From contig CP070739.1 in assembly GCA_020347705.1 (NCBI GenBank), positions 1,774,506-1,808,388 of the forward strand: DNA of 33,883 nucleotides, in the 5' to 3' direction. Numbering within the stretch: position 1 is the first letter of the stretch; every line of letters begins with the position of its first letter. This stretch comes from Methanomassiliicoccales archaeon (GTDB lineage: Archaea > Thermoplasmatota > Thermoplasmata > GCA-020350865). This document shows, one piece after another, positions 2,930 to 28,231 of the stretch. The notes beneath the pieces were generated by a model. It saw nothing but the letters and a program-made list of their open reading frames with translations. It searched no databases and was not told the origin of the DNA. The position numbers and the translations under genes were made by a program.

Positions 2930-3343
2930 ATGGACAGGAGCGTGAAGGGTATGGAAGATGCAGCAATAAGGAAAACCAAGAAGGAACGCCTGGATGAGGT
3001 GTTAAAGAGACTCATGAACGTCGGACAGCTGAAGGCCAGCGCCATCGTTAGTACGGAAGGACTGCTTATTACTTCCAGAACACCTCCGGAAATGAACGAA
3101 AGGATAATTGCCGCACTTTGCTCCACCGTTATGGCCAGCGCGGAAACGGCAAGCAGCCAGATGAGCATCGGAAAAGTGAGCGAGATCAGTGTGAGGACGG
3201 ATGAGGGAACCATATTTCTTTCACCTGCTGGCCAAAAGGCCCTTTTGGTGGGGCTCGCAGAGCCGGAGGCCCAGGCGGGATTGATATTGATGGAAATGGA
3301 GTCCAAAGCATCGCAAACCCAAGAGATATTGGAGGAGGATTGA
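2930..3343 (+). CDS. Roadblock/LC7-domain protein
   Basis: A 137-residue protein that is almost entirely one roadblock/LC7 domain (about 18-122). A leading basic helix is followed by the typical strand [14 protein letters not shown], a helix with [16 protein letters not shown], and paired strands ending in [17 protein letters not shown]. Roadblock proteins dimerise and bind small GTPases; in bacteria MglB acts this way on MglA. The gene next door, seven bases away, encodes a Ras-like GTPase, and this is the strongest clue to its job. The start is uncertain: the ATG at 2930 lacks a close ribosome site, while the ATG at 2951 follows GGAG and GAAGGG and would remove seven residues. No transmembrane segment is present, so it is cytoplasmic. 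It probably regulates or anchors the GTPase; no GAP activity can be read from the sequence. Confidence 0.85.
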
Positions 3344-3349
3344 GTCCCG

Positions 3350-3901
3350 TTGAAGAGCGCGGATGAAATGAACGATGATGAGGGCACGCTGAAGAAGATC
3401 AGCATGCTCGGTGATTTGGCCGTGGGAAAAACCAGTCTTGTAAATAGATATGTTTTCAACGTTTTTGGCGATGAGTACATAAGCACCATCGGGACAAAGG
3501 TCGTAAAAAAGAAATTGACTCATAATAATAGAAAAATCGTTCTCATGATTTGGGATATAGCCGGCGAGACCACATTCAACCATATAAGAAAAGCATATTT
3601 CAGAGGATCAGAAGCAGGCCTGGTGGTTGTGGATATCACCAGGAAAAAAACCCTTGATAATGTCTCGGATTGGATCTCTTCCTTTTTAGAGATCACTGGT
3701 GATTCACCGATATTGATCCTTGTTAATAAATCGGATTTAAAGGAAGACTACACCTTTACCATGGATTCTGCACACGAAATAGCTGAAAAATTCCAAACAA
3801 AGGCCTTATCCACAAGTGCCAAGACCGGGGAAAACGTGGAAGAGGCATTTCATATTCTTACCGAGCTGATATTTTCAAGATCCGAAAATCCAGATATATA
3901 A
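3350..3901 (+). CDS. Ras/Rab-like small GTPase
   Basis: A complete small GTPase of 183 residues. G1 is GDLAVGKT (21-28), the switch I Thr is T46 in STIG, G3 is WDIAGET (68-74), G4 is NKSD (126-129) and G5 is TSAK (155-158). These are Ras-superfamily motifs of eukaryote-like Rab/Ras type, not the MglA type. The position equal to the catalytic Gln61 of Ras is Glu73, so intrinsic hydrolysis may be slow or depend on a partner. There is no C-terminal Cys for lipid attachment, so it is cytoplasmic unless held by a partner. The start is taken as TTG at 3350, eleven bases after GGAGGAGG inside the end of the roadblock gene; an ATG at 3368 is the alternative. Its place between roadblock and V4R genes suggests it is the switch of this cluster. 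Confidence 0.88.
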   Translation: MKSADEMNDDEGTLKKISMLGDLAVGKTSLVNRYVFNVFGDEYISTIGTKVVKKKLTHNNRKIVLMIWDIAGETTFNHIRKAYFRGSEAGLVVVDITRKKTLDNVSDWISSFLEITGDSPILILVNKSDLKEDYTFTMDSAHEIAEKFQTKALSTSAKTGENVEEAFHILTELIFSRSENPDI

Positions 3902-3916
3902 TAGGTGGTGTTCGCA

Positions 3917-4402
3917 TTGGAAAAAGGAGCAATAGATGTAACAAAAACCCAAGTGGGATTCTTCGTTGTGCCCAACGAATTCATGAGGGGAATACGCAAT
4001 GAGCTGGAGTCCATGGTGGGCAAGGGCGCGGGAAATGAATTCCTGTTCAGATCAGGATTCAGATGCGGTGAGGCCGTTGTAAAAATGCTGGAGCTAAACA
4101 ATTATAAGATGCCGGATATCCTGGTCTCCTTGTGGTCACAGATCGGTTTTGGCAGATTGAAGGTCCTGGATATGAGCGTAGAGCATATTGAAGTCCAGTG
4201 CGAGGAATCCACCGAGGCCATGGCCATTGGCCCTGCGAAGGCCCCAGTCTGCGATTTCACGAGGGGTTGTCTAGCCGGGACGATTTCTGCAATCGTGGGT
4301 AAGGATTACTATGCCATTGAAAAACGTTGTGTATCCATGGGTGACCCCTACTGCGTCTTCTCCTTAAGTATGGACGAAAGATGGTCTCCGTATTGGAGGT
4401 AG
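3917..4402 (+). CDS. V4R-domain protein (4-vinyl reductase fold ligand sensor)
   Basis: About 161 residues from a TTG start at 3917, chosen because AGGTGGTG ends six bases upstream; a GTG at 3905 would add four residues but has no ribosome site. The C-terminal part is a clear V4R domain (about 75-150): CDFTRGCLAG (112-121) followed by an AIEKRC-x-SMGDPYCVF block with Cys138 and Cys146. V4R domains occur in bacteriochlorophyll enzymes and as the hydrophobic-ligand sensor of XylR/DmpR-type regulators. Many archaeal stand-alone versions have no known ligand. Cysteines at 50, 95, 112, 118, 138 and 146 could bind a metal or act in redox sensing. It sits three genes into the cluster, 14 bases after the GTPase, so it may feed a ligand signal into the GTPase. 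The ligand is not visible from sequence. Confidence 0.82.
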   Translation: MEKGAIDVTKTQVGFFVVPNEFMRGIRNELESMVGKGAGNEFLFRSGFRCGEAVVKMLELNNYKMPDILVSLWSQIGFGRLKVLDMSVEHIEVQCEESTEAMAIGPAKAPVCDFTRGCLAGTISAIVGKDYYAIEKRCVSMGDPYCVFSLSMDERWSPYWR

Positions 4403-4444
4403 AAATAGGATCGCCCAGGCCTGGTTTGGAGGGAATAGAATAAG

Positions 4445-5626
4445 ATGGCCACTAAAAACACCTTTATTCCAAGATTGGACAGCCTTTTAAATGGGGGCCT
4501 GCCCCAGGGAAAATCACTGGCCTTCTCTGCAGACCCAGGCGTACCTTCCGATATCTTCGGATATCAGGTGCTGGGAGAAAGATTGAAAAATAACGGTGAA
4601 AAGGGTTTCATTTACACGAACACACAACTTCCCAACTACATCGAGAGACAATCGTACGGTTATGGATGGAATATTAAAGAATATGTGGATTCTAAAAGGC
4701 TATTTTTTATTGATTCCGCTTCCATCAGATTGGGTCTTCCAGGTGCGGGAAAATACAATATATATAACGATTCTGAGATTCCAAACGTGATATCAAAGGC
4801 AATTGAGGAAATCCACGGCGGTATCGGAGTTATTGCGGATGTGGCCATGCTCTTAGAAACCCAAGGTTATGAGGATACATGGGAGATGATGAGGACCTGG
4901 AACCAAAGCGCAAAAGAAAACGAAGTGAACCTCATATATATATTCACGAAATGGGACTATGAGGACAATATAATCAAAACATTCAATAGTCTGGTTGATT
5001 GCGAGGTAAGGATACAACCCATGGCGGAGAGAGTGATATTCAAACAGGTATTCTCGGTTGTAAAATCCAATTGGACCGACCATTCAAACCTAAAAATATT
5101 CTTTGAAACCTTAAAGCCAGGCGGTGTTGCGGTGTTCATTCCGAAACTGTTGGTTACTGGCCCTTATAATGCAGGGAAAACCAGTTTTGTTAAGGCCGTA
5201 ACCACCGAGAGCGTTTCTGTGGACAGACAGGCTTATGAACGCTTTCCCACCACTGTGGGCCTGGATATCGGTCATTTGGAGCACAGAGGATTTTCTGCGG
5301 ATGTTTTCGGTACCCCTGGTCAGGAAAGGTTCGATTTATTACTTGAGGTCCTGGCAAGAGAGGCCATGGGTACGTTCATAATCATCGACTCTACAAAGCC
5401 CGAGACCTTCTTAAGGGCACAAAAGATGATTACGCTTTGTAAGGTGGAGGCCATTCCAAAGGTTATTGTAGCAAACAAGCAGGATTTGGATGATGCACTC
5501 TCACCTGCCGAGATTCGATTGAAAATGAACTTATCCGAAAGGATTCCGATAATACCCACCTCCGTTGCCAACAATGAGGGTGTTACAGAAGCGTTGGATA
5601 CGTTATTGAACATGATATACCGATGA
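4445..5626 (+). CDS. Fusion: inactive KaiC/RecA-like domain plus MglA/COG2229-type GTPase
   Basis: A 393-residue two-domain protein. Residues 1 to about 225 look like a KaiC/RecA fold: IPRLDSLLNGGLPQGKSLAF is the usual KaiC opening, but the P-loop position reads SADPGVPSD (28-36) with no GKT/S, and the Walker B strand (about 127-134) has only one Asp. This half should not hydrolyse ATP. Residues 232-393 form a GTPase: GPYNAGKTS (239-247), a switch I Thr in FPTTVG, FGTPGQER (288-295), ANKQD (353-357) and SVANNEG. The GTPGQ form is that of the COG2229/MglA-like GTPases rather than Ras. The gene overlaps the next one by four bases (ATGA), so translation is coupled. It may be a scaffold joining KaiC-like hexamers to a GTP switch; this is inference. 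Confidence 0.82.
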   Translation: MATKNTFIPRLDSLLNGGLPQGKSLAFSADPGVPSDIFGYQVLGERLKNNGEKGFIYTNTQLPNYIERQSYGYGWNIKEYVDSKRLFFIDSASIRLGLPGAGKYNIYNDSEIPNVISKAIEEIHGGIGVIADVAMLLETQGYEDTWEMMRTWNQSAKENEVNLIYIFTKWDYEDNIIKTFNSLVDCEVRIQPMAERVIFKQVFSVVKSNWTDHSNLKIFFETLKPGGVAVFIPKLLVTGPYNAGKTSFVKAVTTESVSVDRQAYERFPTTVGLDIGHLEHRGFSADVFGTPGQERFDLLLEVLAREAMGTFIIIDSTKPETFLRAQKMITLCKVEAIPKVIVANKQDLDDALSPAEIRLKMNLSERIPIIPTSVANNEGVTEALDTLLNMIYR

Positions 5627-6384
5627 TATCAAGTAAAGAGAGGGTGATGAATACGACCCCCAGAATTGAATCAGGATTAAACGGCCTGGATGCCCTACTG
5701 GGAGGCGGGCTTCCCGAAAACTCGGTAACGCTGGTGTACGGTCCGCCAAAGACAGGGAAATCCATTCTCTGTTACCACTTTCTTTTCCGCGGTTTGCTTA
5801 AGGATGAGCCGTGTCTTTTTGTGATGAGCGACTATACTTGGAATCAGCTCAGCGAGAGGATGATGACATTCAATTGGCCCATCGAGAAATATGCTAAAGA
5901 CGAAAAGATATATAGAATAGACACCGTTTCAAGGCTCGGTTCGAAAGTACCAAAGGAGACCCAGACACTCAAGATATCCCATACAGAGAATCCAACGGAC
6001 GTCATGCTCCATGTGAGCAGTGGAGCAAGATATCTTTACAAGAAATTCAATAGGTTCAGGGCCGTCTTGGATTCATCAACATCGTTCTTTTTATACAATC
6101 CGCATTCGTTGATCAACAGAGTGCTCAAATCCTATGTTCTGAGCATCAAGGAAGCGGGGGGAACAGGTCTTATCACCTACGCTGAAGGAAGTGTGGATTC
6201 ACAAACTGAGACCATGTTGAAGGCCAGTGTGGACAACCTCATCAAGCTCGATGGTGAAGAGATGCATATCGAGGCCGTAATCGGTGCCGGGAGAAAAAAA
6301 GCGAGCTATTCCATTGGAGAGAAAGGAATATTACTCAAGGAAATTTCTGATGAAAATTCGTTTATTGCTGTGGGCTTGGATTGA
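5623..6384 (+). CDS. KaiC/RecA-superfamily ATPase (single domain)
   Basis: A 253-residue single KaiC-like domain. The opening RIESGLNGLDALLGGGLP (14-31) is typical of KaiC-family proteins, Walker A is GPPKTGKS (40-47) and Walker B is RAVLDS (146-151). The position after strand 2, where active KaiC proteins have a Ser-x-Glu-Glu pattern, reads VMSDYT (68-73), so the usual catalytic Glu is missing or replaced by Asp70. It may bind ATP but turn it over slowly. The start at 5623 overlaps the previous stop; an ATG at 5647 just after GAGAGGG is an alternative and would remove eight residues. It has no fused output domain, so it probably acts through its cluster partners, perhaps by hetero-oligomer formation with the neighbouring KaiC-like proteins. 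Confidence 0.83.
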   Translation: MISSKERVMNTTPRIESGLNGLDALLGGGLPENSVTLVYGPPKTGKSILCYHFLFRGLLKDEPCLFVMSDYTWNQLSERMMTFNWPIEKYAKDEKIYRIDTVSRLGSKVPKETQTLKISHTENPTDVMLHVSSGARYLYKKFNRFRAVLDSSTSFFLYNPHSLINRVLKSYVLSIKEAGGTGLITYAEGSVDSQTETMLKASVDNLIKLDGEEMHIEAVIGAGRKKASYSIGEKGILLKEISDENSFIAVGLD

Positions 6385-6408
6385 AAGATTAAATACTCTA
6401 ACCACAAT

Positions 6409-7131
6409 ATGGGGATAGGTGTTAGATTGGTGCAAGATAAAATTCCCACACATATAGAGGGATTCGATGATCTTTTGGGGGGCGGCATACCCAAAGGCCA
6501 TATAGTCCTTCTGTCAGGATCGCCAGGAACCATGAAATCTTCGGTAGCGTACAATATCTTACATCAAAACGCCTTGGCAAATAAAATGAGAGGGGCATTC
6601 TTCTCCTTGGAGCAGAGCCGAGAGAACTTATTGAAACAAATGAATAGCCTGGGATTAATGCAAAAGGATGTGGAAGGGCAGCTCAATATCGTTGACATGT
6701 CCCTTATCCGGAAAAAATTGTCCGAGATCCGCTCGGAAGGAAGCATCCTTGACCTCTTCAAATTGTACGCCGACAATTTAAATGAACAAGAAGGATGCGA
6801 TTTATTGGTTGTGGATTCCCTTACCGTTTTGATGATAATCGCCCAGATCAAGGACAACAGGGATCAGATATTCCATCTGTTTGAATGGCTGCGAAGTATG
6901 AATGTCACGGTCTTTCTCGTTTCTGAATCTCCAAGAGAGCCAAACCAAGTGTTCGATGAAGAATTTTTAGCAGATGGTGTGATACACCTGGTAAAGGAGA
7001 GAGTAGGTACGGTTGATACACAGCTAAGAATCATCATCGAAAAGATGAGGGCCACAGACCATCACAGGGGTTTTTTCAACCTAGCATTCAAGGACGGACA
7101 TTTTAAGATCAGCCAAATTATTTCTGAATAA
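6409..7131 (+). CDS. KaiC/RecA-superfamily ATPase (single domain)
   Basis: A 240-residue KaiC-like ATPase that looks fully competent. The opening is HIEGFDDLLGGGIPKG, Walker A is GSPGTMKS (37-44), a form common among archaeal KaiC relatives, the catalytic Glu is E68 in FFSLEQS, and Walker B is DLLVVDS (131-137). The C-terminal block MRATDHHRGFF matches the KaiC region that lines the ATP site of the next subunit. It is the last gene of the run, 24 bases after the previous stop. The start is uncertain: a GTG at 6430 follows ATAGGTG by eight bases and may be the true start. A weak TATA-like ATTAAATAC at 6388-6396 could provide an extra internal promoter. It is probably the active partner to the degenerate KaiC-like domains upstream. 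Confidence 0.85.
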   Translation: MGIGVRLVQDKIPTHIEGFDDLLGGGIPKGHIVLLSGSPGTMKSSVAYNILHQNALANKMRGAFFSLEQSRENLLKQMNSLGLMQKDVEGQLNIVDMSLIRKKLSEIRSEGSILDLFKLYADNLNEQEGCDLLVVDSLTVLMIIAQIKDNRDQIFHLFEWLRSMNVTVFLVSESPREPNQVFDEEFLADGVIHLVKERVGTVDTQLRIIIEKMRATDHHRGFFNLAFKDGHFKISQIISE

Positions 7132-7140
7132 TCGAGATCC

Positions 7141-7156
7141 TATTTTTTAAAAAATA
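7141..7156. terminator. AT palindrome between convergent transcripts
   Basis: TATTTTTTAAAAAATA is a perfect 16-base palindrome just after the end of the plus-strand signalling cluster and facing the minus-strand propeller gene. Its T runs on either strand could end transcription from both sides, as archaeal termination relies on U tracts. There is no GC stem, so the call is weak. Confidence 0.3.
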
Positions 7157-10112: not shown

Positions 10113-13100
10113 CTAAGGCTCCCTATCGTCCTCGGGTGCTCCCATTGTATCCCTGTGAACACCAGGTAGATTGCCTGCTTGCGGGTCTCGGGGTGCTCCG
10201 TGCTGGTCTCCCCATTGTGGGTCCTTTTGGGTAACGAGGCCCAACTCACCATCAGGTTCGGTTAGGGACTGATCTGCGCCACATGCCTCACCCAAGGCCA
10301 GCAGGAATTTGACTGCGTGTGGGGATATTAACCTATTGACCTCAGGATAACCAAATGGACTGTACGGGACGATATAGCTGTTGAATTCTCCTGTCCAATC
10401 GAAAGCGCGGTCGCCGCCAGTATTGATAATCAGAACGTCCAGGCCGCCGCCGCCGAAGATGAAATCGCGGTCTGCAAATTCAGGTTCATCCGGCTGATTG
10501 TTGAGGCCGCCCTGGGAGTCATGATTGTCGTCTCCATTTAATACATCGTCGCCCATACCGCCGAACAGGCGGTCATTCATGGTGCCTCCTACAAGCCAGT
10601 CGTGACCCAAATCGCCGAAGAGCCTGTCCTTGCCGTCGTTGATCTTGCTTCCGTTTTCATCCACAGCCTCAAAGTTGAGCAGGAAACCGTCGATCTTGAC
10701 CAGTGGGAAGTCTGCATCGTAGGCCGCGAACTTTCTGGTCACAGGATCGTATGGTAGAGGAGTGAAATTGGTTACCGGATTGTCGTGATAGAACTCGGGT
10801 AATGCTTCTGCACCCGATATGGCGTCATTTCCTGCGCCGCCGTGCAACCAGTCATCGCCGAGACCGCCGTAAATGGTGTCGTTTCCGCCGTACTCGAAGG
10901 CATACAGATCCGCTTCCTTCTTGAGCCTGCCAGATATGTGAACCCAGGCACCAATGAATGGACCTGGCATTTTGATAAATTTCTCCTTGTTCGCATTGTT
11001 CAATCCGTAAAGCGTTTCTTTTTCACCGTTGCGGCTGGTGAATATCTTACCATCGTCTCCGAGAATACCGTCTTCACCATTGCAACCGTATAGCCTATCG
11101 TGCCCGGTTTGGCCGAATATATCGTCGTCCTGTGCATCACCGAAGATGACGTCATTGCCTGTCAATCCATGTATGACATCGTCACCTGCCTCTCCATGGA
11201 TAAGATCATCATCTCCAATGTCGCTGGCACCGCCACCGGCAGTGTAATCGAGCAGCTGAACAGCCCGGGGTACGATGGTTATATTGCCGTAGTTGTCGTA
11301 TGTGAACGCAAGGAACTGGCCGGTTCCCTGTCCATTGGTGCCGACAATACGGTAGATATTTCCGTTGTCGCCGATGATATAATCCGCATCTTTTGCATGC
11401 CCGTCATCGGATTCATCGCCTGGATCGTAGCGGGCAATGCGGGTTCCGGCCCCGCCGAAGATTGTATCAGAACCGTCTGGCCGCATGCTGGAATCGGTAA
11501 GACCGAACTGATCGGAGCTTCCACCGATGATATCGTCCTGACCGTAGCACCCGAACATCAGATCATCGCCACCATTGCCCTCCATGTAGTCATCCCCATC
11601 GTCCCCGGCCTCCACTGAAGGATCGGTAGCGTTGATGAACTCAGAAATCGATGCATCCCCTTGCATGAGGTCGTCGCCAAGTTGGCCGAACATAACGTCA
11701 TCATCAGGACCGCCGGCCATATAGTCATCACCGAATGTGCCCGAGGTTGGGCTGTCGCTGTGATCAAGCAGTGTGATATCCCGTCCTTTCGCCCCCCGTG
11801 GATCTTCCTGATGCGTTGGGTCGACATCAGCGTTTCCGTTGGCGTCGTACAATGTCTTCCCATTCAATGCTCTAAAGCGCGGGCTTACCGTATCTGTTCT
11901 TCGAAGTACGATTGAATTATCACCAGCCAGCACATCATCCCCCGAGCCTCCATCCATAATATCGTTGAGACCAGCTGGGGTATCGAGCTCATCGATACCG
12001 CCCACAACATTATGTCCTCCAATCAGGTCATCGTCATCTTCATCACCGAACATATTGTCATCGCCCTGTTGACCCAGGAGGATATCATCACCTGCGTTAC
12101 CATGGATCAGATCACCGTCACCGCCATCAGCAGCTGCGGTGAAGATCGAGATGAAGGTAAAGGTTGGAACAGGCAGAGAATTGAGGTCAAGTATCATTCC
12201 TGGCTTCCTTTCGACCCTTGCATGGTCGCCGAAGAGCAGGTCGTTGTCCTCATTGCCGTACATCGTATCATTGGCCGTGCCGCCAAAGGCGATATCGTTT
12301 CCTGAACCGCACAAGATCATATCGCTTCCACCGTCGTTAGGGGATGTTGCCTTGATCAAGTCCAAGGTGGATTTGTCAGGTTCTGAGCCATCAACTGGAT
12401 ATGCATAATCGAGCATGCCGTTATCCCCAAGGATGATATCGAGTCCTGCGTTGCCTTCTAAATGATCCCCGTACGCACCTCCGAGAATGATGTCATCGCC
12501 GTCGTTGCCTTCTATGGTGTCGCTGCCGCCGATAGCGGGAGCCGTTGTTTTTATGACCTGGATCACCGCGCCGGGCTGCGTGATATTGCCGTTGTCGCCA
12601 AGTATGATATCATGGCCGCCGTGACCCCAGATATCATCACCCTCTGCACCGCCGAGAATAATATCGTCATCTTCGTTGCCCTCGATGGTATCACTACCGC
12701 CATCACCTGGATCAGTTGATACTATGAGATCCAAACTACTTGCATCTCCATCATAAACGAAGTCGAGGAATCCATTGTCGCCGAGAATCACATCGTCAGA
12801 AGCGTTACCCCAAATATCATCACCTACGGCACCGCCAAGGATGTAATCGGCACCTTCATTACCATATATAGTATCACTGCCTCCGATGGTAGGATTCGTT
12901 GTCTCAATCCTCTCCACTATTTCACCAGGTTGCGTTATCCTTCCGCTATCTCCAAGTATCAAGTCATCACCTTCATGGCCCCATATAAAATCACCATAAG
13001 GACCGCCCAGGATAACATCATCGTCTTCGTTGCCTTCTATGGTGTCGATACCACCAATGGTTGCGTTGGTTGTCTCGATGAGGTCGAGCGTATTAGCATC

Positions 13101-16100
13101 GCTGTCCACGACGAAATCCAGCCTACCGTTATCACCGAGAATTACATCCTCGCCATTGTTGCCCCAGATGTCGTCACCTTCGGCCCCGCCAAGTATTTTA
13201 TCATCTCCGTCGTTGCCTTCGATTGTATCACTGCCACCCACGGTTGGGTCGGTTGTTTCGATCACCTCGATTACCTCATCTGGCATGGTGATTTTACCGT
13301 TATCCCCAAGTATGATATCTGCTCCATCGTTGCCCCAGATATCGTCGGCTGCCGTGCCGCCAAGGATTATGTCGTCGCCGTCATTGCCCTCGATAGTATC
13401 GGTGCTGCCATATGTTGGGAAGATGGTTTCGATCATGTCGATTACTCCACCCGGCATCGTGAGCTTGCCGTTGTCGCCGAGAATGATGTCATCGGCCTCG
13501 TTGCCTTCGATGGTATCGGCACCAGAGCCACCGAGAATGATATCCTCATCTTCGTCACCTCCGATGGTGTCGTCGCTGCCCAGGTTGGGCTTGGTGGTGT
13601 TGATCAAATCCAAAGTTGTTGGATCTCCGTCACCGCCGCTTGAGTTTGCCAAATTGTATCTCATGAGGCCTTCATCACCGATTATGATGTCATCTTCTGT
13701 ATTCCCGTCAAGGTTGTCACCTGCAACGCCGCCTATGATAACATCGTTCTCCTCGTTGCCTTGGATAGTGTCAACACCGCCATCGGCTGAATCCTTAGCC
13801 GTTGTTTCGATGCGGGCGATCAAACCGTTTTCGAAAACCAGCTCCCCTTGGTCGCCGAGCAAGATGTCTTCTCCTGGTGGACTACTGGAATTTCCGGTGA
13901 GGGTGTTGTCGCCGTAGATGGTGTCATCAGCCCCTCCACCCAACACCGTATCATTGCCCTCACCACCTGAGATCTCATCAGTACCGCCTGGTGCTGGCAA
14001 TATGTTATCCGTTGTTCTTATCAAATCCAATGTGGAGAGATCACCATCACCTGTATTGTAATTCAGCTCTCCGCTATCTCCGAGAATGATATCGTCTTCA
14101 AGGCCGCCTATTATCTCGTCATTACCGACGCCACCCAAGATGATGTCAGCGTTTTCACTGCCGTCGAGGAAGTCGTCGCCACCTGTCCCTAGGACCTTGT
14201 CGGTTGTATTGATAAAAGTGATGTTGGACAACTTTGCATTGGCATCAGGGACGAAGTCCACCAGACCGTTGTCACCGATTAAGACATCCTCTCCATCCAC
14301 TCCCGGCGCGTCAGAATCGCCATAGATATTATCACCTGCTGCGCCACCGATCGCGATGTCGTCACCTTCACCGCCATATATGTTATCCACACCACCGGCT
14401 CCAAGATCGGTGGATCTGAACAAGGTGATCAATGAACCTCCCATACTAGGCATCCAAGTAAAGTCGAACTCGCCGTTATCTCCTACCAATCTATCATCTC
14501 CATGGCCACCGTTCATGGTGTCACCGCCGGGGCCACCAAGCAGGATGTCGTCGCCCACATCTCCGTTCATGATATCGTTGCCCGTAACACCTGGCCGAAC
14601 AGTTTTGATGAGGTCATAGTTTATCGTTAGCTGGTGGGGCACCAAATAGACCTCGCCATCGTCGCCAAACAAAACGTCGTTGTCGGCCTCGCCCTTGACC
14701 TCGTCGTTGCCTTGATTGCCGAACATCCTGTCGTTGCCTGTGCCACCGAAGAGATGATCATGATCGGTGCCTCCGTATATGACGTCCGAGCCGCGTTTGC
14801 CCCAGATGTAATCATTACCAGAATCCCCAAAGAGCTCGTCGTTGCCGTCCTCTCCATAGATCTCGTCCGCACCGCTACCACCGGATATGTTATCACCACC
14901 GGCGGTTCCATATAATGGGAATATTGTGACCGGGTACCCTGTCCCATTTATCTCTAGCAAATACGTCGTTTTGTTGAATCTGAACGAAGAGTCACCCCAG
15001 ATCTTGTCCGCTCCCCCTCCACCATCGATATAATCAGGTCCACCGCCACCACTGATAAAATCGGCCCCGCCTTCACCATCAATGTTGTCAGCGTCACCGT
15101 CACCGGTGATATGATCAACTCCTGAGGCCTCATGTAAAATAACAGGGAGCCCAGGACCATTAGGCTCAGGCGCGAAGGCATAATTGGAACCTATGAACTT
15201 GATGGAAGAATCACCCCAAATATGATCCTTTCCACCACCACCGCGTATCACATCATCACCAGCACCGCCTGCTAGGAAGTCATCGCCCTCGCCTCCGTGG
15301 AGGATATCATCATCCGCGCTTCCACGAAGCTGATAAGGGCCGATAGGGGTCGAAGTGTCTTGTGCATCGCCGTTTAGTACATCATTTCCTAAACCGCCTT
15401 CGAGGCGATCCTCACCTCCACTGCCTATGAGATAATCATTGCCCTTTTCACCGAACAGCTCGTCATCACTCTGGCCACCGATCAGTACATCATCACCTAA
15501 ACCACCGTAAAGCGATGCTTCGCCTTTAACTCCTATGAGAACATCGTTACCTGATCCACCGCTTAGTTCCGCTGTGATCGAATCAGGGCCAGTATCCATT
15601 CCTGACAGGTCGATGACATCATTTCCCAGGCCACCATCACCTATGATCTTTGTGACTCCAGAATACTCTTGAGCGTCACCTCGCCCGACTCCCAGGCCTG
15701 GGGCCCATACGAGTACGGTATCACCTGATTTCCAATCCACATGGAATTCCTCATTACCATCCGTCGTGTCACCGTATAAACGGTCCTTGGCATAATCACC
15801 CATATTGAGGCGCAGTTCGCCGCTACCTTCGTTGATCGAGGCCAAGATAGGATCGCGGGGACACGAGTAACTGAACTCAAGCAACGGCGCTGATGGCCCG
15901 AAATACCAGTATTTCTCCCAAGTGAAGAACAGGAACTTGATCTTGACGAAAGCGAAAAGACGGGCTGTGATACTACCGCTCACATCGAATATGCATATCA
16001 ATCCAAGTGGGATTCCCAACTGCTTGAATCCGTTTTGAATGTTGCCGATGATTTCCTCTATTCGGACTTTACCATCACCGTCAGGATCGTTGAGGTTGAA

Positions 16101-19100
16101 TTCTACGGTGGCATAGATACCACCGCCGACGCCTACACTGGCAACCCAGAGATTCAACACGCACGCTCCTGTGAGGCTACCGTAAAGCGTAACCTCGGGA
16201 ATATCCACACCTGTTTCCCTATCGGTATCACCCACGTAGAAGCCCTTGAGAAGATCCAGCGGATGCTTGAAACCGCCTTTGGCGAATTCTTGAAGGCCGT
16301 AGGTGTCGTAACCAAAGGACAGGTCGATTTTGACTCCAAGTGTACCACTGATCTCAGCTCCCAGTCCATCCCAAATTGGGAAGAACTGGGTGTAGGTGAA
16401 CTCGAAAGTGAACTTCGGCATATCATAGACGATGATATCCGCGGGTCGGCCGAGCAGCAGACCAAATAACTGACCCGGATCGGTAAATATCGGGAAACTC
16501 CAGCCACCGCCTTCCTTTGTCATGGTCTTGGCAAAGGACTTGGTGGCCGGGGAAGAGCTGCTTCCAGACAGCGCATCGTCCAGCAGGCTATCAAAGTCGA
16601 AGTTCTTCAATGTATTGAGCAATTCACCGAAGTCCTCAGAACCGAGAATATCTCCAAGAGGTGTACTGGATGATGCGGACCGAATCTCATCGAGGGCCTT
16701 GGGATCCCGCAAATCGAGGGTTCCATCCCCACCCAGACTGAAGCTGCCGAAATGGATAACGATGTCTTCGGCATCGGTGGGAATGGAATTGATCAGTGTT
16801 ATGAGATCGGCCAGCGCGTAGATAAAGCCAGCATCCACAACACCGAACATTTCTGCTATATCTATCAACGTGATGTCCTTTCCAGCCAGATCCGAAATCA
16901 CAGGAATCGGGGAAGTAAGGATATCTATGAGATCCTGGAGCGGCTCGGTGACCCTCTTGATTTCCTTTAGAATCGGCGCCAAGAATTCGGAGAAGTACTT
17001 ACCGAGGTTGAGCCTGACATTGCTGAAATTGATCCACGGTATCCTATAATGGTTTTCCATGGGATTGGCACTGTCGTTATTAATGCTGTCTCCGAGCCCC
17101 CACCTCAGGTAGAACTCGGCCTGGATGCTTGGCCAGACATCTCCACCCACGACACCCAAGGTGAGATTGAGATCGAGGTCGGCCTCGGCGCCATAGGAGA
17201 AATTGAGGCTTATGGATGGTATCTCGGTAAGGGACAACCTCTCGTCGGTTCCGCCGCCCTTGACATCCACTGCGAAGAACGCTTCGAGGCTCTTGAGGTC
17301 GGGTTCGGCCATGGTCACATCTCTGTTCTCTACTTCGAGTTGCAGGAACAAGAGCTCTCCTGTGAGCTTTTCCATTAGAATCACACCGAGACTGATCTCG
17401 AACATATGCGTCATGTTTTCCCCGTCAATCTGGGGGGTTTTCTGAGAACCCCCTGGGTGATCGGTGAATTCATCCCATGGCGTGGTATCGAAATAGAATC
17501 CGTCGTCAAGGCTGAGTCCGAAGCAAAGCAGCATATTCCAGTTCAGTGCTAGGGTGATGCCCCCGTCCATATCCAGTCCAAGACCCGGCAGGCCGAAATC
17601 GAACTCTGGAATCGTGAAATTGAACCAACCTCCCAACCACAGATTGAACTGAAGTTCGTTGCCGTCGAATACGTATTGAACGTCCCTGTAATCCTTCGTT
17701 GCGTTGTTGTCCCAATCCGCATCGACTATCAGGACATTCAGCCCATCCGGTCCTAGGGCATTATAGATGGCTTTTTGAACGAACTCGATGGCCTTTTGAG
17801 GTGCGTTCTCGATGAAGTCGCGGAGTTTGGGAATAACACTGCCGCGGACATCCTCGATAAATTCGGCTGCCTCGGCAAGGTCATCGCCGATTAAAGGAAT
17901 GCTGATTCCCAAGAACTCACCGCTGAGCACGGTTTGAAGAATGGCCAATAGTAAATCAAGGCCTTCCACGGCCAAAAGCAGGCTATCTATAAGATTTAAA
18001 TCACCGAGGTCAGGGAGTTTGGTGAAATCCGGGTACTCTCTCACGGTTGCGTTCACTACTAAATCGAACGGATCGTTGGTGGTGCTGAGATCTATACCGA
18101 TGCTGATATTGAAATCCAGATTACCGATGAAGAATGAGGCCGTTGGGTAATAACAGGGTAAAATCGCACCGATCCCAGCCTCGAGACTGGCCCTGAGGGT
18201 CCAATTGTCGATATCAAATAATTTGATCTTATCGCCGTCTATACCAGGATTTGGATCATCGAAGGCGGTGAGTGTTAAGAACGCAGGATTCGTGTTGTTC
18301 GGATCTCCATCCTCATTGAAAACGGCATGACCACCCGTTACGAATAAGCCAAATGACCCTAGGGACGCCATGAAATTAACATTTGAAGCGTTTGCGTAAC
18401 CCTGGAGCCTAACGGCAGTATTGTCGTATATATATATGGTAAGGTTCGACAGATCAATTCCCATACCCAGTGTAACCTCAACCGAGAATTCGGCTTCAAG
18501 ACCTGCAGCTCCGCTGAGATTAACGATATCCTGAAGGCTGGAAGGTAAGTTTATATTCAACAGATTCAGTAGGTCGATTTGTACAGGTAAAGATGCGCTG
18601 TAGCTCTCGTCCCAAGTAATATTGAAGCGTAAAATTGTACTACCTTTTAATACGGAAAGGATAACACTATCTCCATCAGTTGGAAGTCCCAGAACCTCTT
18701 TAAGAAGAGTTGTGAGCTCCTGAACAATGGAGGCATTCTCACCTGACAGCTCCTCAATTGCCAATAAAAACGGCTCAATAAAGTTCAGTGTCTCGTTCAG
18801 TGTGACGCCCAGAATAGGTATGGGTTCATCATAGAAATCATACTTACTGAAGTTGGTAAGGAGATTGTAGATGCTTCGAAGCGCACTTAAAACCGAGCTG
18901 AAGTTCAAATCATCGAAACCGTCGACAATGGCCCCCATATCCAATCCCGTAACGTTCAGGGTTGACATATTCGTGAAATCCTCCAGAACGATAACAATCC
19001 TTGGATCACCCAACAACTCATTGGCCAGGCCTTCTACGGCGTCTGGCAATTGAAGAGAGATATTGCTTAAAGTGAGATTTCCGCTGCCGGAGATGTCGAG

Positions 19101-22100
19101 GTTGACCAAGGCCTTGAGCATGGATAAATTGGTGACAGCCTTGGCCAGATCGGGCAGATAGATGCGTCCGGTCTGTTGGCCTGTAGCAAAACCGAGCACA
19201 GTTGCGGCCGGGTTGGTTTCTGAATCAGGGATGACAAGCCGTAATTTCTGGCCGGCAGAGGTGGATAAAGTGAGCTTATTGCCTGAGTTTCCCACGGTGA
19301 CTTTACCATTTAGGGGAGTGCTGTCAATGGCGTTTTGTAAGTCCGTAACCAGATCGTTGATATTGGTGTTACTTTGGGTGGTTTGCCAATTGAGTGTCAC
19401 AGGCCAGGTATCATCGCCGTAGGTCATCTCAAATGTGGCGTTTTCTGGGCCAGGTAATGTGAAGTTGGATAGTTCCTTGGAGATGATCCCTCCAAGAGAT
19501 ACTGTGACTCCTCCGTGCACAGCGACATCATCACCATAGCCCTCGAGGCTTCCTTTGATGGTATTGATTTTTATACCGACGAAACCGAAGTGCGCTGAAA
19601 GCGCAGGTTCGTCGGTGGTGTTGACGATGAGATCCACTGCTCCGTACAAGCTGGCATCCCGGATGAATAAACGCCCCCTCGGCTCCCGAGTGGTAGCGGT
19701 AACACCGTCATCGAGACCAAGTTCATTTTGGGCTTGTAAATTCACGCCAATGACCTCGAACACCTCGATGCTTTTGTTGATGGCACATAACTTGATTCTG
19801 TTGCCCAAAAGTCCGGCGATCACCATAGCCGAGAGATTCACGGTGCCGCCACCCGAGGGCGTCACGCTTTCCAAAGCTGAATTGATATCATCCACCAAAT
19901 CTGTGATATTATTGTTCGAGTTGGTCAATGACGCCAGGACGGTGACTGTATAGATCTCAGACGTGCCGTTATCTACGGATAGATTTAATACCGCATTGCC
20001 GCTCAGATGTCCGTTAGCACGCGGGCCGAAGACTTCGGCCTCCGTCACCTCGAATCCCAGGTCACTGGAGGAAACATAAGTAATGTTGAGCCAGTCCTTC
20101 AATGCCGAGGGTACCGATAGTTTCAGATAGAACTTATCTGTTTCATTGGTAAGGCTAGCCACCACGACCCGATCAAGCTGTGTCCCATCGCTAAACTCCT
20201 CTCTTCCAAAGGCTTCGTTAATATCATCGACCAAATCCAGTGTGTTGTTATTGTCCTGGGTGGTCCCCATACCAGTAACCGATATGTAGGTTGTAATTGG
20301 GTCTGGAGTCAGCGTGATTTTATTCACGCCTGGACTGTAATGTTTGCCTGCTGTCACAAGGGAGGTGATGTTCACTTGGGAACCGTTTTCTGCTATGACA
20401 TTTTCGAAGGCTTTGTTGGTGTCATTAATCATATCAAAGATATTAACGTTATCCTGGGTGTCGGTTTCGGGAATCGTTACAATGTAATAATCCTCCCCAA
20501 GTGTCAACTTGAATGTGACGTCCGCGCCAGGTGCGGGATTTGTGAGGTTATTTTTGGCCGTCAAGGTACCGTTTGCGGCCTGGTTACAGACAAAACCAAG
20601 AAGCTTCCCATTGGCCGCGCGGACAGTGAAGGTCACAGGGTCATCGTCCACAGTTAAAGTCATTTTCACGTCGTGTTTTAGTCTTCCGTTGGAGACGATT
20701 TCTGAGGAGAGATTTGTGGAAGCTGTAATATTCAAGGTTCTGTCCCCGAGAATGGTGAGCTCAGCCGAAAGTTCGTTCTTTGGAACACCGAGTTCCTTGA
20801 TTGATATCTCGTTGGGATTGTCTACTCGCAGGAATTTCTCCTCCGTTTGGTTGCCCAGATATAGGACGAAGGAATCACCAAAATCACTGATCCGCCGTAA
20901 GTTGACGATATTGTCCCCTCCAACTGTGCTATTGATGGCCGCCTGTATATCCAAAAGCAGCTCCTCTATTGGATCCTCGGTATCATTGGCGTTGTCCGTA
21001 TCCTGATCCACGGTAATCGAATACCTCACCGCTCCTACGGTCAGATCAAAGCTTGCGGTTCCAGTAAGCACACCGTTTTGCGGAAGTGGCGATATTGTTC
21101 CAAGCTGTCCATCTGCGAAACCCAGCAACTCGAAGCCACCGGCCGACTCGTTTTCGTCCGCAGAGTTGTTCAGGATTTTTAAAAATGTCGTATTGGTCGT
21201 GAAGAAGCCGAGTCTGTTTCCAGTAAGCACCTCTACCTGAATTTCGGCTGAAATGTTCTCCTCAGCTGCCAGGGCCGTGCTGATGGATTCTTCGATGTCT
21301 TGAACGAGATCATTGATATTATTATTGTTACTGGTGTTGTCGGCCGTCACATTGACATCCACCGAGCCGATTCCTCCCAGGATGAGCCGGAAGTTGGCGT
21401 CTCGAGGAAGAGTTCCGTTGGAAGGAGTGAAAGTTGAGCCCGTGCTCGGATCGATTAGGGCCCTCAGCCCAAAATCGGCCTGCTCTGAGCTGACTCCAAT
21501 TTCTGTATCGAGGCTCTTGAAAGTCCCTAGATCGATGCCTACGGTGAAGCCGAAACCTATGCTGGGTTTCAGCGATACCTCAACATTTGTCTGGATGCTG
21601 CCCAAAGGACCCAAGTCCAAATCGAAATCGATGGGTACATCCAAGATATCTGGCAGGGTGAGATTGATTTCGATTCTGAACGTCAGTTCATGCGTATTCA
21701 GATCATAGTTTGGATTGATTTGTCCCAGATTCATATCGGCCAGTGCATTGTCCAATGCCACTGCCAACGTCTGGACGCTTGTAAACTGCGGTGTTGTGAC
21801 ACCGAGCTCGTCTGTCAAGGAAATATTTTGATCATCGAGCAATTTGCCTAAACCGCTTGCAAAACCCAGGACATCTGCCAGGGTCTTTCCGTCGGCAAAT
21901 GGTACGTCAACCGCGTTAAACAGCTGTGATGCGCCAAATGAGCCCAACCACCCTTTGAGCTGCCCCATAAGGCCCAGGAAACCATCGGATAGAATGTTGT
22001 TGAAGGGCAGCAGGTGCTCCTCGAAGGCGTCGCTTACATTGATGAGTGGTGCTGTCCTGGGATCATCCGATTCATCGGGGGCCATGAACTTATCGAAAGG

Positions 22101-25465: not shown

Positions 25466-28231
25466 ATGGTAATAGAGAAGGGATTTCAGTCTAAATTCGT
25501 CGGTAGAGAAGAAGCTCTAGATGAATTGAAAAACCGTCTTGATGAAAGCCTGGCAGGACGGGGACAGCTTGCTTTAATCAGCGGTGAAGCCGGAATAGGA
25601 AAAACTCGGCTGCTACATGAGTTAAAGAAATATGCCAGCTCAAACCAGGTGAGATGCTTAGAGGGAGGTTGTATCTATCATGATGTTTCTAACCCCTATC
25701 TGCCTTTTTTAACGGCCTTCTCTGAACTCACCACCCCTTCTTTTGTTGATGAGGCCAAAAAATATGTCATGATAGACGAGGCCTTCCTTATTAACAATGC
25801 AGGAAAGGTTGTTTCATATGCCTCGCGAATCGGGGCAAATATTTTGGATGAAGATATAGTCGGGGCCATGCTTTCAGCCGTTGAATCCTTTGTTAAAGAC
25901 GCTTTCGGTGACGGGGAAAGTGCGGTAAAAGGACTTGACACCTTGGTATATGGAACCATAAGAATATTTATCGAACATGGAAAACATGTATTTTTAGCCG
26001 TTGTTCTCTCTGGTGGGGAACCTGAAGGAATAAGAGAAGACCTTAAAAAACTCGTTAATAAGATCGAGGATAAATATCACGATGTTTTAAAGGACTGGGA
26101 TGGACAGATAGCCAAGGTGAGGGAAATCTCAGAAATCATTTCCGGCCTTACAACCGTTAAGTACCGGGTAAAACTTGCCATAAGGGACATAGATATCAAG
26201 GAGGAGAAGGATAGGGTGTTCGAGAGAGTTTTGCAGCTTATAATCGAAACGGCCGAAGATGAACCGTTATTATTGATTTTGGAGGACATTCATTGGGCAG
26301 ATACCTCATCCCTTCAACTCCTTCAATACGTGACCAGAAACACCCAAGAATCACGGGTGTTCATCTGCGGGACATATCGGCCTGAAGAACTGGATGATGT
26401 TGGTGATAAAAAAGTTCACCCCTTAAAAGAGGCGATACAGAGAATGAGTCGCCATAAAATGTTCGCTCCAATCGAGCTTACGAGGCTTCCTCCATCGGAA
26501 GTTTCTGATATGTTGACATCGATATTTGGCATGCCTGAATTCCCAAGCGGGTTCAAAGAACGAATTTTCAAAGAGACGGAAGGAAATCCTTTCTTTATCG
26601 AAGAAATGCTGCATTCATTCCAGGATGAGGGTGCAATCAGCTTCAAAGAGGGAGGATGGCATATAAGTGAGGTCTCTGGGATAGCAATTCCATCCACAAT
26701 AAAGGATTTAATAGCGCTTAGAATTGAAAGACTGGATGAGGGCTCTATGAATGCAATTAAGTATGCATCGGTGATCGGACAAGAGTTTGGTTATGAAGTT
26801 TTAAAATATTGTTTAGAAATAGATGAGGAGACCTTTGTGAACCTGTTAGACAAATTGATGGAGGCAAAATTAATATACGAAGCACCGGAAGACAGTGCGG
26901 GCGAGTATAATTACAGATTTGCCCATGGTAAAATTACGGAAGTCATATATGAGGGATTGAGTAGCGGCAAGAGACGGCTGATACATTCGAAAGTAGGAGA
27001 GGCAATAGAAGAATTAAATCAGCATAGAATAGAGGATGTTGTATATGATTTAGCATATCATTTCTTTAAATCCCGTAGGTTCGATAAGGCACGTTATTAT
27101 GCGAAAGAAGGAGGGGATAAAGCAATTGGTTCTTATGCAGCAGAGGATGCCATAGGATATTATGAATTGGCCCTTGAGTCTCTAAAGAGATCTCAGGATA
27201 GAGAGCCGCTATCAGAGTCTGATCTCACAGAAGAAATAGAAACGCTATCGAAACTAGGAGATGTATGCTATATAATAGGGGAATGGGATCGAGCTTTGGA
27301 GTATCAGAGACAATTGATTGAATTAAGCGGTAAAATTGGGGACAAAGCTAGGATGTTGGGAGGCTATTGTGCCATTGGCTATATCTATTTTAGTCGTGGT
27401 GAATGGAAACTTGCTTTAGAAAATCTCGAAAAAGGCTTAAGAATTGGTGAGGAAACCGAAGATGACCGCGGAATAGCGGATAGCCTGTATTTTCTCGGCG
27501 CATTGCATGAGAAGCGAGGGGATTTTAATGAAGCAATTATAAATTATGGAGAGTCCATGGGAAGAGCGGTTAATATGGGTGATAATTTATTGATTGGAAA
27601 TGCATATTTGGGTATTGGTAGGGTATATGGCCAACAAGGTCAATATGACGAATCAATTAAGCATATGCAGAAATCTATCGAGATTTTTAAAGAAAATGAA
27701 AACCTAAACGATTTGGCGAAAGCCTATATAAACCTAGGACAAGCGAATTTTTGTCGCGGAAGTTTGGAGGAGTCGATATTATATTATGATAAAGGACTAA
27801 AAATAGCAAAAAAAACGGGTAATATCAGATTAGAGGGGCATGGACTATCAAATCTTGGTGAATCATATACAAAAAAGTATGAACTAGAGAAGGCTATTTA
27901 CTGTTTGGATAAGGCGCTAGAGATCTTCAAAAAACTAGATGAGAAGTCTATGATATCTGATGTCTATACACATTTCGGATGCGTGTATAGACTCAAACAG
28001 GAATGGGATAGGTCCAAAGATTATTTCAAAAAAAGTTTAGAGATATCAAGAGAATTAAATATGCCATATTATGTGGGGTGCGGACTTTTAGAATTTGGAT
28101 TAATGCATAAGGCTAAAGGTGATCTAGAAAAAGCAAAAGAGCAATTGAGCGAAGCTATGGAAATTTTCAAATATTTAAACAATCAGGAAATGCTTAAAAA
28201 AATAGAGAAAGAGTTGGAAGCATTATTCTAA
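25466..28231 (+). CDS. AAA/STAND-type ATPase with C-terminal TPR repeats
   Basis: A 921-residue cytoplasmic regulator-like protein. An AAA_16-type NTPase domain begins at once: FVGREEALDEL, Walker A GEAGIGKT (40-47), Walker B ILEDIHWAD (271-279) and an arginine-bearing GTYRPEE (about 302-308). Between Walker A and B is an extra globular stretch (about 100-245). A winged-helix-like region (about 400-500) leads to TPR units filling about 540-921, at least eight of them. The plan is that of MalT/adenylate-cyclase-associated STAND proteins: ATPase switch, sensor superhelix, but with no DNA-binding or catalytic output domain. It should therefore act through protein contacts. AAGG lies seven bases before the ATG. 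Its base composition is more AT-rich than that of the giant gene. It converges on the 97-residue gene with only 16 bases between them. Confidence 0.83.
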   Translation: MVIEKGFQSKFVGREEALDELKNRLDESLAGRGQLALISGEAGIGKTRLLHELKKYASSNQVRCLEGGCIYHDVSNPYLPFLTAFSELTTPSFVDEAKKYVMIDEAFLINNAGKVVSYASRIGANILDEDIVGAMLSAVESFVKDAFGDGESAVKGLDTLVYGTIRIFIEHGKHVFLAVVLSGGEPEGIREDLKKLVNKIEDKYHDVLKDWDGQIAKVREISEIISGLTTVKYRVKLAIRDIDIKEEKDRVFERVLQLIIETAEDEPLLLILEDIHWADTSSLQLLQYVTRNTQESRVFICGTYRPEELDDVGDKKVHPLKEAIQRMSRHKMFAPIELTRLPPSEVSDMLTSIFGMPEFPSGFKERIFKETEGNPFFIEEMLHSFQDEGAISFKEGGWHISEVSGIAIPSTIKDLIALRIERLDEGSMNAIKYASVIGQEFGYEVLKYCLEIDEETFVNLLDKLMEAKLIYEAPEDSAGEYNYRFAHGKITEVIYEGLSSGKRRLIHSKVGEAIEELNQHRIEDVVYDLAYHFFKSRRFDKARYYAKEGGDKAIGSYAAEDAIGYYELALESLKRSQDREPLSESDLTEEIETLSKLGDVCYIIGEWDRALEYQRQLIELSGKIGDKARMLGGYCAIGYIYFSRGEWKLALENLEKGLRIGEETEDDRGIADSLYFLGALHEKRGDFNEAIINYGESMGRAVNMGDNLLIGNAYLGIGRVYGQQGQYDESIKHMQKSIEIFKENENLNDLAKAYINLGQANFCRGSLEESILYYDKGLKIAKKTGNIRLEGHGLSNLGESYTKKYELEKAIYCLDKALEIFKKLDEKSMISDVYTHFGCVYRLKQEWDRSKDYFKKSLEISRELNMPYYVGCGLLEFGLMHKAKGDLEKAKEQLSEAMEIFKYLNNQEMLKKIEKELEALF

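Follow-up and report, generated by a model that had tools for sequence, protein, structure and literature searches.

Six neighbouring genes in a stretch of 33,883 nucleotides from a Methanomassiliicoccales archaeon (in the following, the window) encode proteins with roadblock, small GTPase, V4R and KaiC domains, which raises the question of whether they work together as one conserved signalling unit. The first-pass annotation had seen in them a candidate ligand-gated switch cluster of an undescribed kind. Nucleotide-switch signalling with a V4R protein of the ligand-sensor type is indeed well supported, but the conserved six-gene unit had to be given up. Among the relatives' loci compared, the complete six-gene order was found in no genome beyond that of the host, and a congener (G015) lacks the gene for the pseudo-KaiC/GTPase fusion described below. 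Instead, the cluster joins two molecular-switch modules that are conserved separately and independently of each other.

Layout of the six-gene cluster

All six open reading frames were confirmed at positions 2930-7131 on the plus strand, tightly packed and with Pfam matches well above the cut-off, so that the common direction and the domains named earlier stand. In gene order, they are separated by 6, 3, 42, -4 and 24 bases, the negative value being an ATGA overlap of genes 4 and 5 (5623-5626). The overlap and the upper limit of the gaps of 6-42 bases given previously were correct, but the lower limit was not, the smallest positive gap being 3 bases. In line with the earlier annotation, Pfam showed no kinase, receiver or DNA-binding domain in any of the six proteins. 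Both genes flanking the cluster lie on the opposite strand. A TATA-like element, TTTATAATA, at 2877-2885 of the plus strand, 45-53 bases upstream of the first ATG, is a candidate operon promoter, and a T run at 7143-7148 of the same strand, just downstream of the last stop codon, may mark the transcription end, both having been recognised by eye. Owing to these signals and to the orientation of the flanking genes, the six genes are likely to form one operon.

The host genome is a single contig of 3.2 Mb with matches to 5 roadblock, 28 Ras, 6 V4R and 21 KaiC proteins; for a genome of this size, 28 Ras-family matches are, in our judgement, an unusually large set. When these counts were placed at random, assuming about 3,000 genes, a roadblock gene had one or more KaiC genes together with a Ras and a V4R gene within five genes in 7 of 20,000 cases. 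Regulatory genes might simply have been gathered in one operon with no joint function between the modules, and the wealth of Ras and KaiC paralogs as well as the uniqueness of the six-gene order to the window would fit such a loose neighbourhood. Nevertheless, clustering by chance is rare, as the random placement indicates, and V4R is fused to DUF835, a domain listed as inactive KaiC (PMC5847659), in most of its GTPase-paired relatives, so that the same domain types are linked elsewhere. We consider a mere neighbourhood very improbable. On the minus strand, the window also holds an open reading frame for 4954 aa (10113-24977) with many GGxGxD-type (RTX-like) repeats.

The roadblock protein and the pseudo-KaiC/GTPase fusion

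The first module consists of a roadblock protein and of a KaiC domain without Walker A that is fused to an MglA-like GTPase; in most cases, a second KaiC-like protein belongs to it. In the window, the fusion (4445-5626; Pfam KaiC 6.9e-18, Arf 1.1e-12) comprises the KaiC-fold domain in residues 1-228 and the GTPase domain in residues 229 to 393 (approximate boundary), the latter with the motifs GPYNAGKT (P-loop), FGTPGQE (G3) and NKQD (G4). Its AF2 model reached a pLDDT of 81, with KaiC as the top Foldseek match (4.5e-16). Relatives of the fusion are about 22-40% identical, the closest being those of ANME-2, Alkanophagales and Altiarchaeota and the farther ones those of soil and sediment Thermoplasmata. 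In an alignment of 15 sequences, the GTPase half mostly keeps the P-loop, GTPGQ and NKxD, and Walker A is missing from the KaiC half in every case (15/15), which is why the earlier label "dead KaiC" was right.

The module is present in ANME-2 (L115), Altiarchaeota (L118) and SpSt-1185 (L119) and in the Thermoplasmata families f15, f16, f18, f23, f24 and f27, the occurrence of the fusion outside Thermoplasmata being known from one pattern scan. At the SpSt-1185 locus, the order roadblock-fusion-KAI1 is that of the window minus Ras-V4R. Alkanophagales (L116-L117) possess roadblock and fusion, and the scan gave no KAI1 or KAI2 match beside them; at L116, an open reading frame for 203 aa, whose kinship to KaiC was judged by eye only, lies between the two genes.

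The roadblock/LC7 protein of the window (2930-3343, 137 aa; Pfam Robl_LC7 5.5e-18) is of the MglB/CvnB/Asgard type, with profile matches to an Asgard-type roadblock (7f8m, 3e-24), cvnB5 (3leq, 2e-16) and MglB (6h5b, 1e-6). MglB proteins coupled to MglA groups 2-5 have a conserved Asp-Gly pair; at the position assumed to be equivalent, most relatives read DG and the window EG. Of 33 distinct fusion loci, 26 retain GTPGQ; all of these have a roadblock gene within 1.5 kb of the fusion and lack a Ras gene within 600 bases. The fusion of L119 reads GVPGQ and likewise adjoins a roadblock gene. At all six loci where the fusion's GTPase domain is without the Gln, the roadblock gene is missing and a Ras-like gene is found instead. 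Because of this opposition between 26/26 and 6/6 loci, the roadblock protein is most likely the partner of the fusion's GTPase and not, as had been proposed, the regulator of the Ras-like protein. Roadblocks linked to a fusion, as far as aligned, are 28-38% identical to that of the window, compared with 20% for a Ras-linked one of the same genome (L104).

It is the latter locus, where another Ras-like gene adjoins a roadblock gene, that leaves room for the roadblock to serve the Ras-like protein also. A corresponding scheme would make the roadblock a GAP or GEF of the Ras-like GTPase and V4R its input, with the KaiC proteins as a separate ATP-driven output, and would draw on this second neighbour pair and on the mere 6 bases between the roadblock and Ras genes in the window. 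The roadblock's company with the fusion in the lack of a Ras gene, found across lineages, argues against it, as do the V4R-Ras pairs elsewhere, next to which no roadblock match was seen, and the count of 0 among 121 Rup-type GTPases coupled to MglB (PMC4316618). We regard this scheme as unlikely.

A reservation about the 6/6 count is that the Gln-less loci all come from the families f15 and f18, so that the swap from roadblock to Ras may have been one event. Their Ras-like gene belongs to a separate clade. That Ras-like genes of different clades stand in fusion operons (the window; f15/f18, clade support 100/99) points to a functional link between the two GTPases. Roadblock might then regulate both of them within a three-way complex, alternately or as a heterodimer-like unit resembling Rag/Ragulator, with V4R and KaiC serving as scaffold. 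However, no conserved unit of roadblock, Ras and fusion was found outside the window, and we hold such a complex to be distinctly unlikely.

Returning to the fusion's GTPase as the probable roadblock partner, we note that MglA groups 2-5 are distinguished by GTPGQ in G3 in place of DxxGQ and by coupling to an MglB-type roadblock (PMC4316618), and it is on account of these marks that the domain is predicted to work like MglA. Judged by sequence alone, it is nearer to Rab/Arf structures, which gave the best matches when the domain was searched separately against the PDB; no MglA structure was obtained there at 1e-6.

Two KaiC-like proteins follow the fusion. KAI1 (5623-6384; Pfam KaiC 1.1e-28) carries the Walker A motif GPPKTGKS and, as judged by eye, MSDY instead of the catalytic Glu pair of KaiC, and the relatives inspected have lost the Ser/Thr of Walker A. 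A KAI1-like gene adjoins the fusion in L115, L118 and L119 and, where the flank is long enough, at most of the Thermoplasmata loci. In KAI2 (6409-7131; Pfam KaiC 1.1e-36), Walker A has the variant form GSPGTMKS, of which PGTMKS/T is kept in relatives, and SLEQ replaces the Glu pair, retaining one of the two catalytic Glu, the first, according to the alignment to KaiC. KAI2 is the likeliest candidate for a working ATPase. In soil Thermoplasmata, several copies of its subfamily lie next to the fusion.

Other combinations of these domains were encountered as well. In the host genome, a roadblock match lies directly upstream of a gene for a GvpD-like KaiC ATPase (L105, 3225-5109). An open frame of 523 aa, which hinted at a roadblock-KaiC fusion, is actually a roadblock stretch that lies in front of a separate GvpD-like gene. 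In L108 (2177-4836), the genes for a V4R-like protein and a KaiC ATPase cluster with that for a 269-aa protein without known family.

The Rab-like GTPase and the V4R protein

The second module pairs a Rab/Ras-like small GTPase (3350-3901, TTG start; Pfam Ras 8.9e-40) with a V4R protein of the ligand-sensor type (3905-4402, GTG start; Pfam V4R 2.2e-14). With GDLAVGKT in G1, WDIAGE in G3 and NKSD in G4, the GTPase shows the motifs of the Rup type, namely GxxxxGK[ST], an Asp in G3 and NKxD. Glu replaces the catalytic Gln in the window, and most V4R-linked relatives read WDILGQ. A Thorarchaeota Rab (7ezb, 1e-31) is its best solved relative; in the tree, it sits on a long branch without a settled position.

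A search with the window V4R against 300 genomes of the class Thermoplasmata revealed how closely the two genes are tied. Among the testable places, a Ras-family gene immediately precedes V4R in 31 of 34 close and 6 of 8 intermediate relatives, compared with 1 of 24 distant ones. The V4R-paired GTPases are drawn from 16 families of the class, and V4R-linked GTPases cluster on the tree, with 4 label changes versus 27.2 when labels were shuffled. A DUF835-like C-terminal domain, called by a local profile and confirmed as Pfam DUF835 in the 3 sampled, is found in 30 of 40 GTPase-paired V4R proteins and in 3 of 31 unpaired ones. The predicted partner of V4R is the Ras-like GTPase. In the literature searched, which did not reach to Makarova 2017, no paper links V4R to a small GTPase except in Asgard archaea.

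The AF2 model of the V4R protein (pLDDT 85.8) matched, in descending order by Foldseek, PoxR (1.3e-9), MopR (8e-9), MJ1460 (4e-7), human Bet3 (2.6e-5) and Thor TRAPPC3 (4e-5), and its TM score to human Bet3 is 0.61. Judging from this model, the protein has the V4R/Bet3 fold. A filing as TRAPPC3 was rejected, as PoxR and MopR rank first. Four residues, C116, E139, C142 and C150, do not vary among 22 sequences and correspond in the alignment to MopR positions 155, 178, 181 and 189, the zinc site of that protein; in V4R, they are a putative zinc site. Homology of V4R and Bet3, with a shared fold and inferred common ancestry, has been proposed before (PMC2253512).

A second pair of Rab-like GTPase and V4R genes is present in the host genome (L103, 3243-7961), behind the gene of a membrane protein of 1181 aa, whose outside domains are PKD/cadherin-like and whose cytosolic domain has no name in Pfam. 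A match to this cytosolic domain also lies upstream of a GTPase-V4R pair in a congener (L178), and an AAA_16-TPR protein in the window (25466-28231) contains the same unnamed domain (39% identity, 7e-22). Its interpretation as a roadblock is unsupported (hhalign 5.6%, with 4 sequences only).

A two-switch model and its relation to known systems

Starting from what was observed, that is, the genes, their motifs, the predicted folds and the conservation of both gene pairings, we give a probability of roughly 0.55 to a reading in which the operon encodes a ligand-sensing cytosolic signalling hub in which a KaiC-type scaffold carries two GTPase switches. In the first switch, the roadblock protein, expected to dimerise like MglB or CvnB, would act on the fusion's MglA-like GTPase, and the pseudo-KaiC domain would anchor this switch to KAI1 and KAI2. 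In the second one, the Rab-like GTPase would be controlled by, or report to, V4R, which may take up a small hydrophobic or aromatic ligand in a pocket supported by zinc. The state of the ligand would then set that of the Rab-like GTPase, which would in turn be passed to the KaiC/MglA-like unit. Physical binding, the ligand, zinc, the direction of control (GEF, GAP or effector), ring formation and the output are parts that we infer.

A more far-reaching suggestion, tentative and in our eyes rather doubtful, is that the V4R proteins of Thermoplasmata are ligand-gated regulators of Rab-type GTPases, a prokaryotic parallel or forerunner of TRAPP Bet3-Rab, and that the operon wires this switch into a KaiC-type scaffold with an MglA-like GTPase and a roadblock. 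How prokaryotic small GTPases match their regulators is mostly unknown, and gene order was of little help in the Asgard archaeon MK-D1 (PMC10933270). Here, gene order gives strong and repeated pairings, by which a Bet3-fold protein from outside the Asgard archaea becomes directly testable against the Rab-like GTPase that is likely to be its cognate partner. This bears on the origin of the TRAPP-Rab relation and on the role of archaeal KaiC-like proteins.

Compared with known systems, the MglA/MglB switch and the actinobacterial conservons (Cvn/AGPS) likewise have a GTPGQ GTPase beside a roadblock gene. In the operon, however, the GTPase is fused to a pseudo-KaiC, is accompanied by KaiC-like partners but no histidine kinase, and its domain alone is closest to Rab/Arf structures. 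With the XylR/PoxR/MopR phenol sensors, the V4R protein shares the fold and the aligned Cys/Glu/Cys/Cys set; it differs in having no AAA+ or DNA-binding domain, in its small GTPase neighbour and in the frequent fusion of its relatives to DUF835. The Rup family keeps the Asp in G3, as do the window GTPase and most of its relatives, but the operon-type GTPase has a consistent V4R neighbour, and PMC4316618 nowhere uses the word V4R. Rup GTPases are not MglB-coupled; a roadblock gene does adjoin in the window, though more probably as the partner of the fusion.

TRAPP (Bet3/TRAPPC3)-Rab and the Asgard roadblock/Rab/TRAPPC3 proteins share the V4R/Bet3 fold with the operon, whose GTPase is likewise Rab-like. 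Unlike in TRAPP, the six genes contain no longin domain according to Pfam, and V4R is nearer to PoxR/MopR than to TRAPPC3; in MK-D1, the roadblock, Rab and TRAPPC3 genes are generally not in operons (PMC10933270). As for archaeal KaiC-like hubs, inactive KaiC joined to signalling domains beside KaiC-like proteins is found there as here. KaiC-type ATPases and their inactive copies have already been proposed as archaeal signalling hubs (Makarova 2017, as cited in PMC5847659), so that, as far as this citation conveys it, the general idea is not new and the earlier claim of an undescribed system does not extend to it. With V4R, a roadblock and two GTPases, one MglA-like and one Rab-like, as partners, the operon nonetheless appears to be a variant of archaeal KaiC/GTPase signalling not met before.
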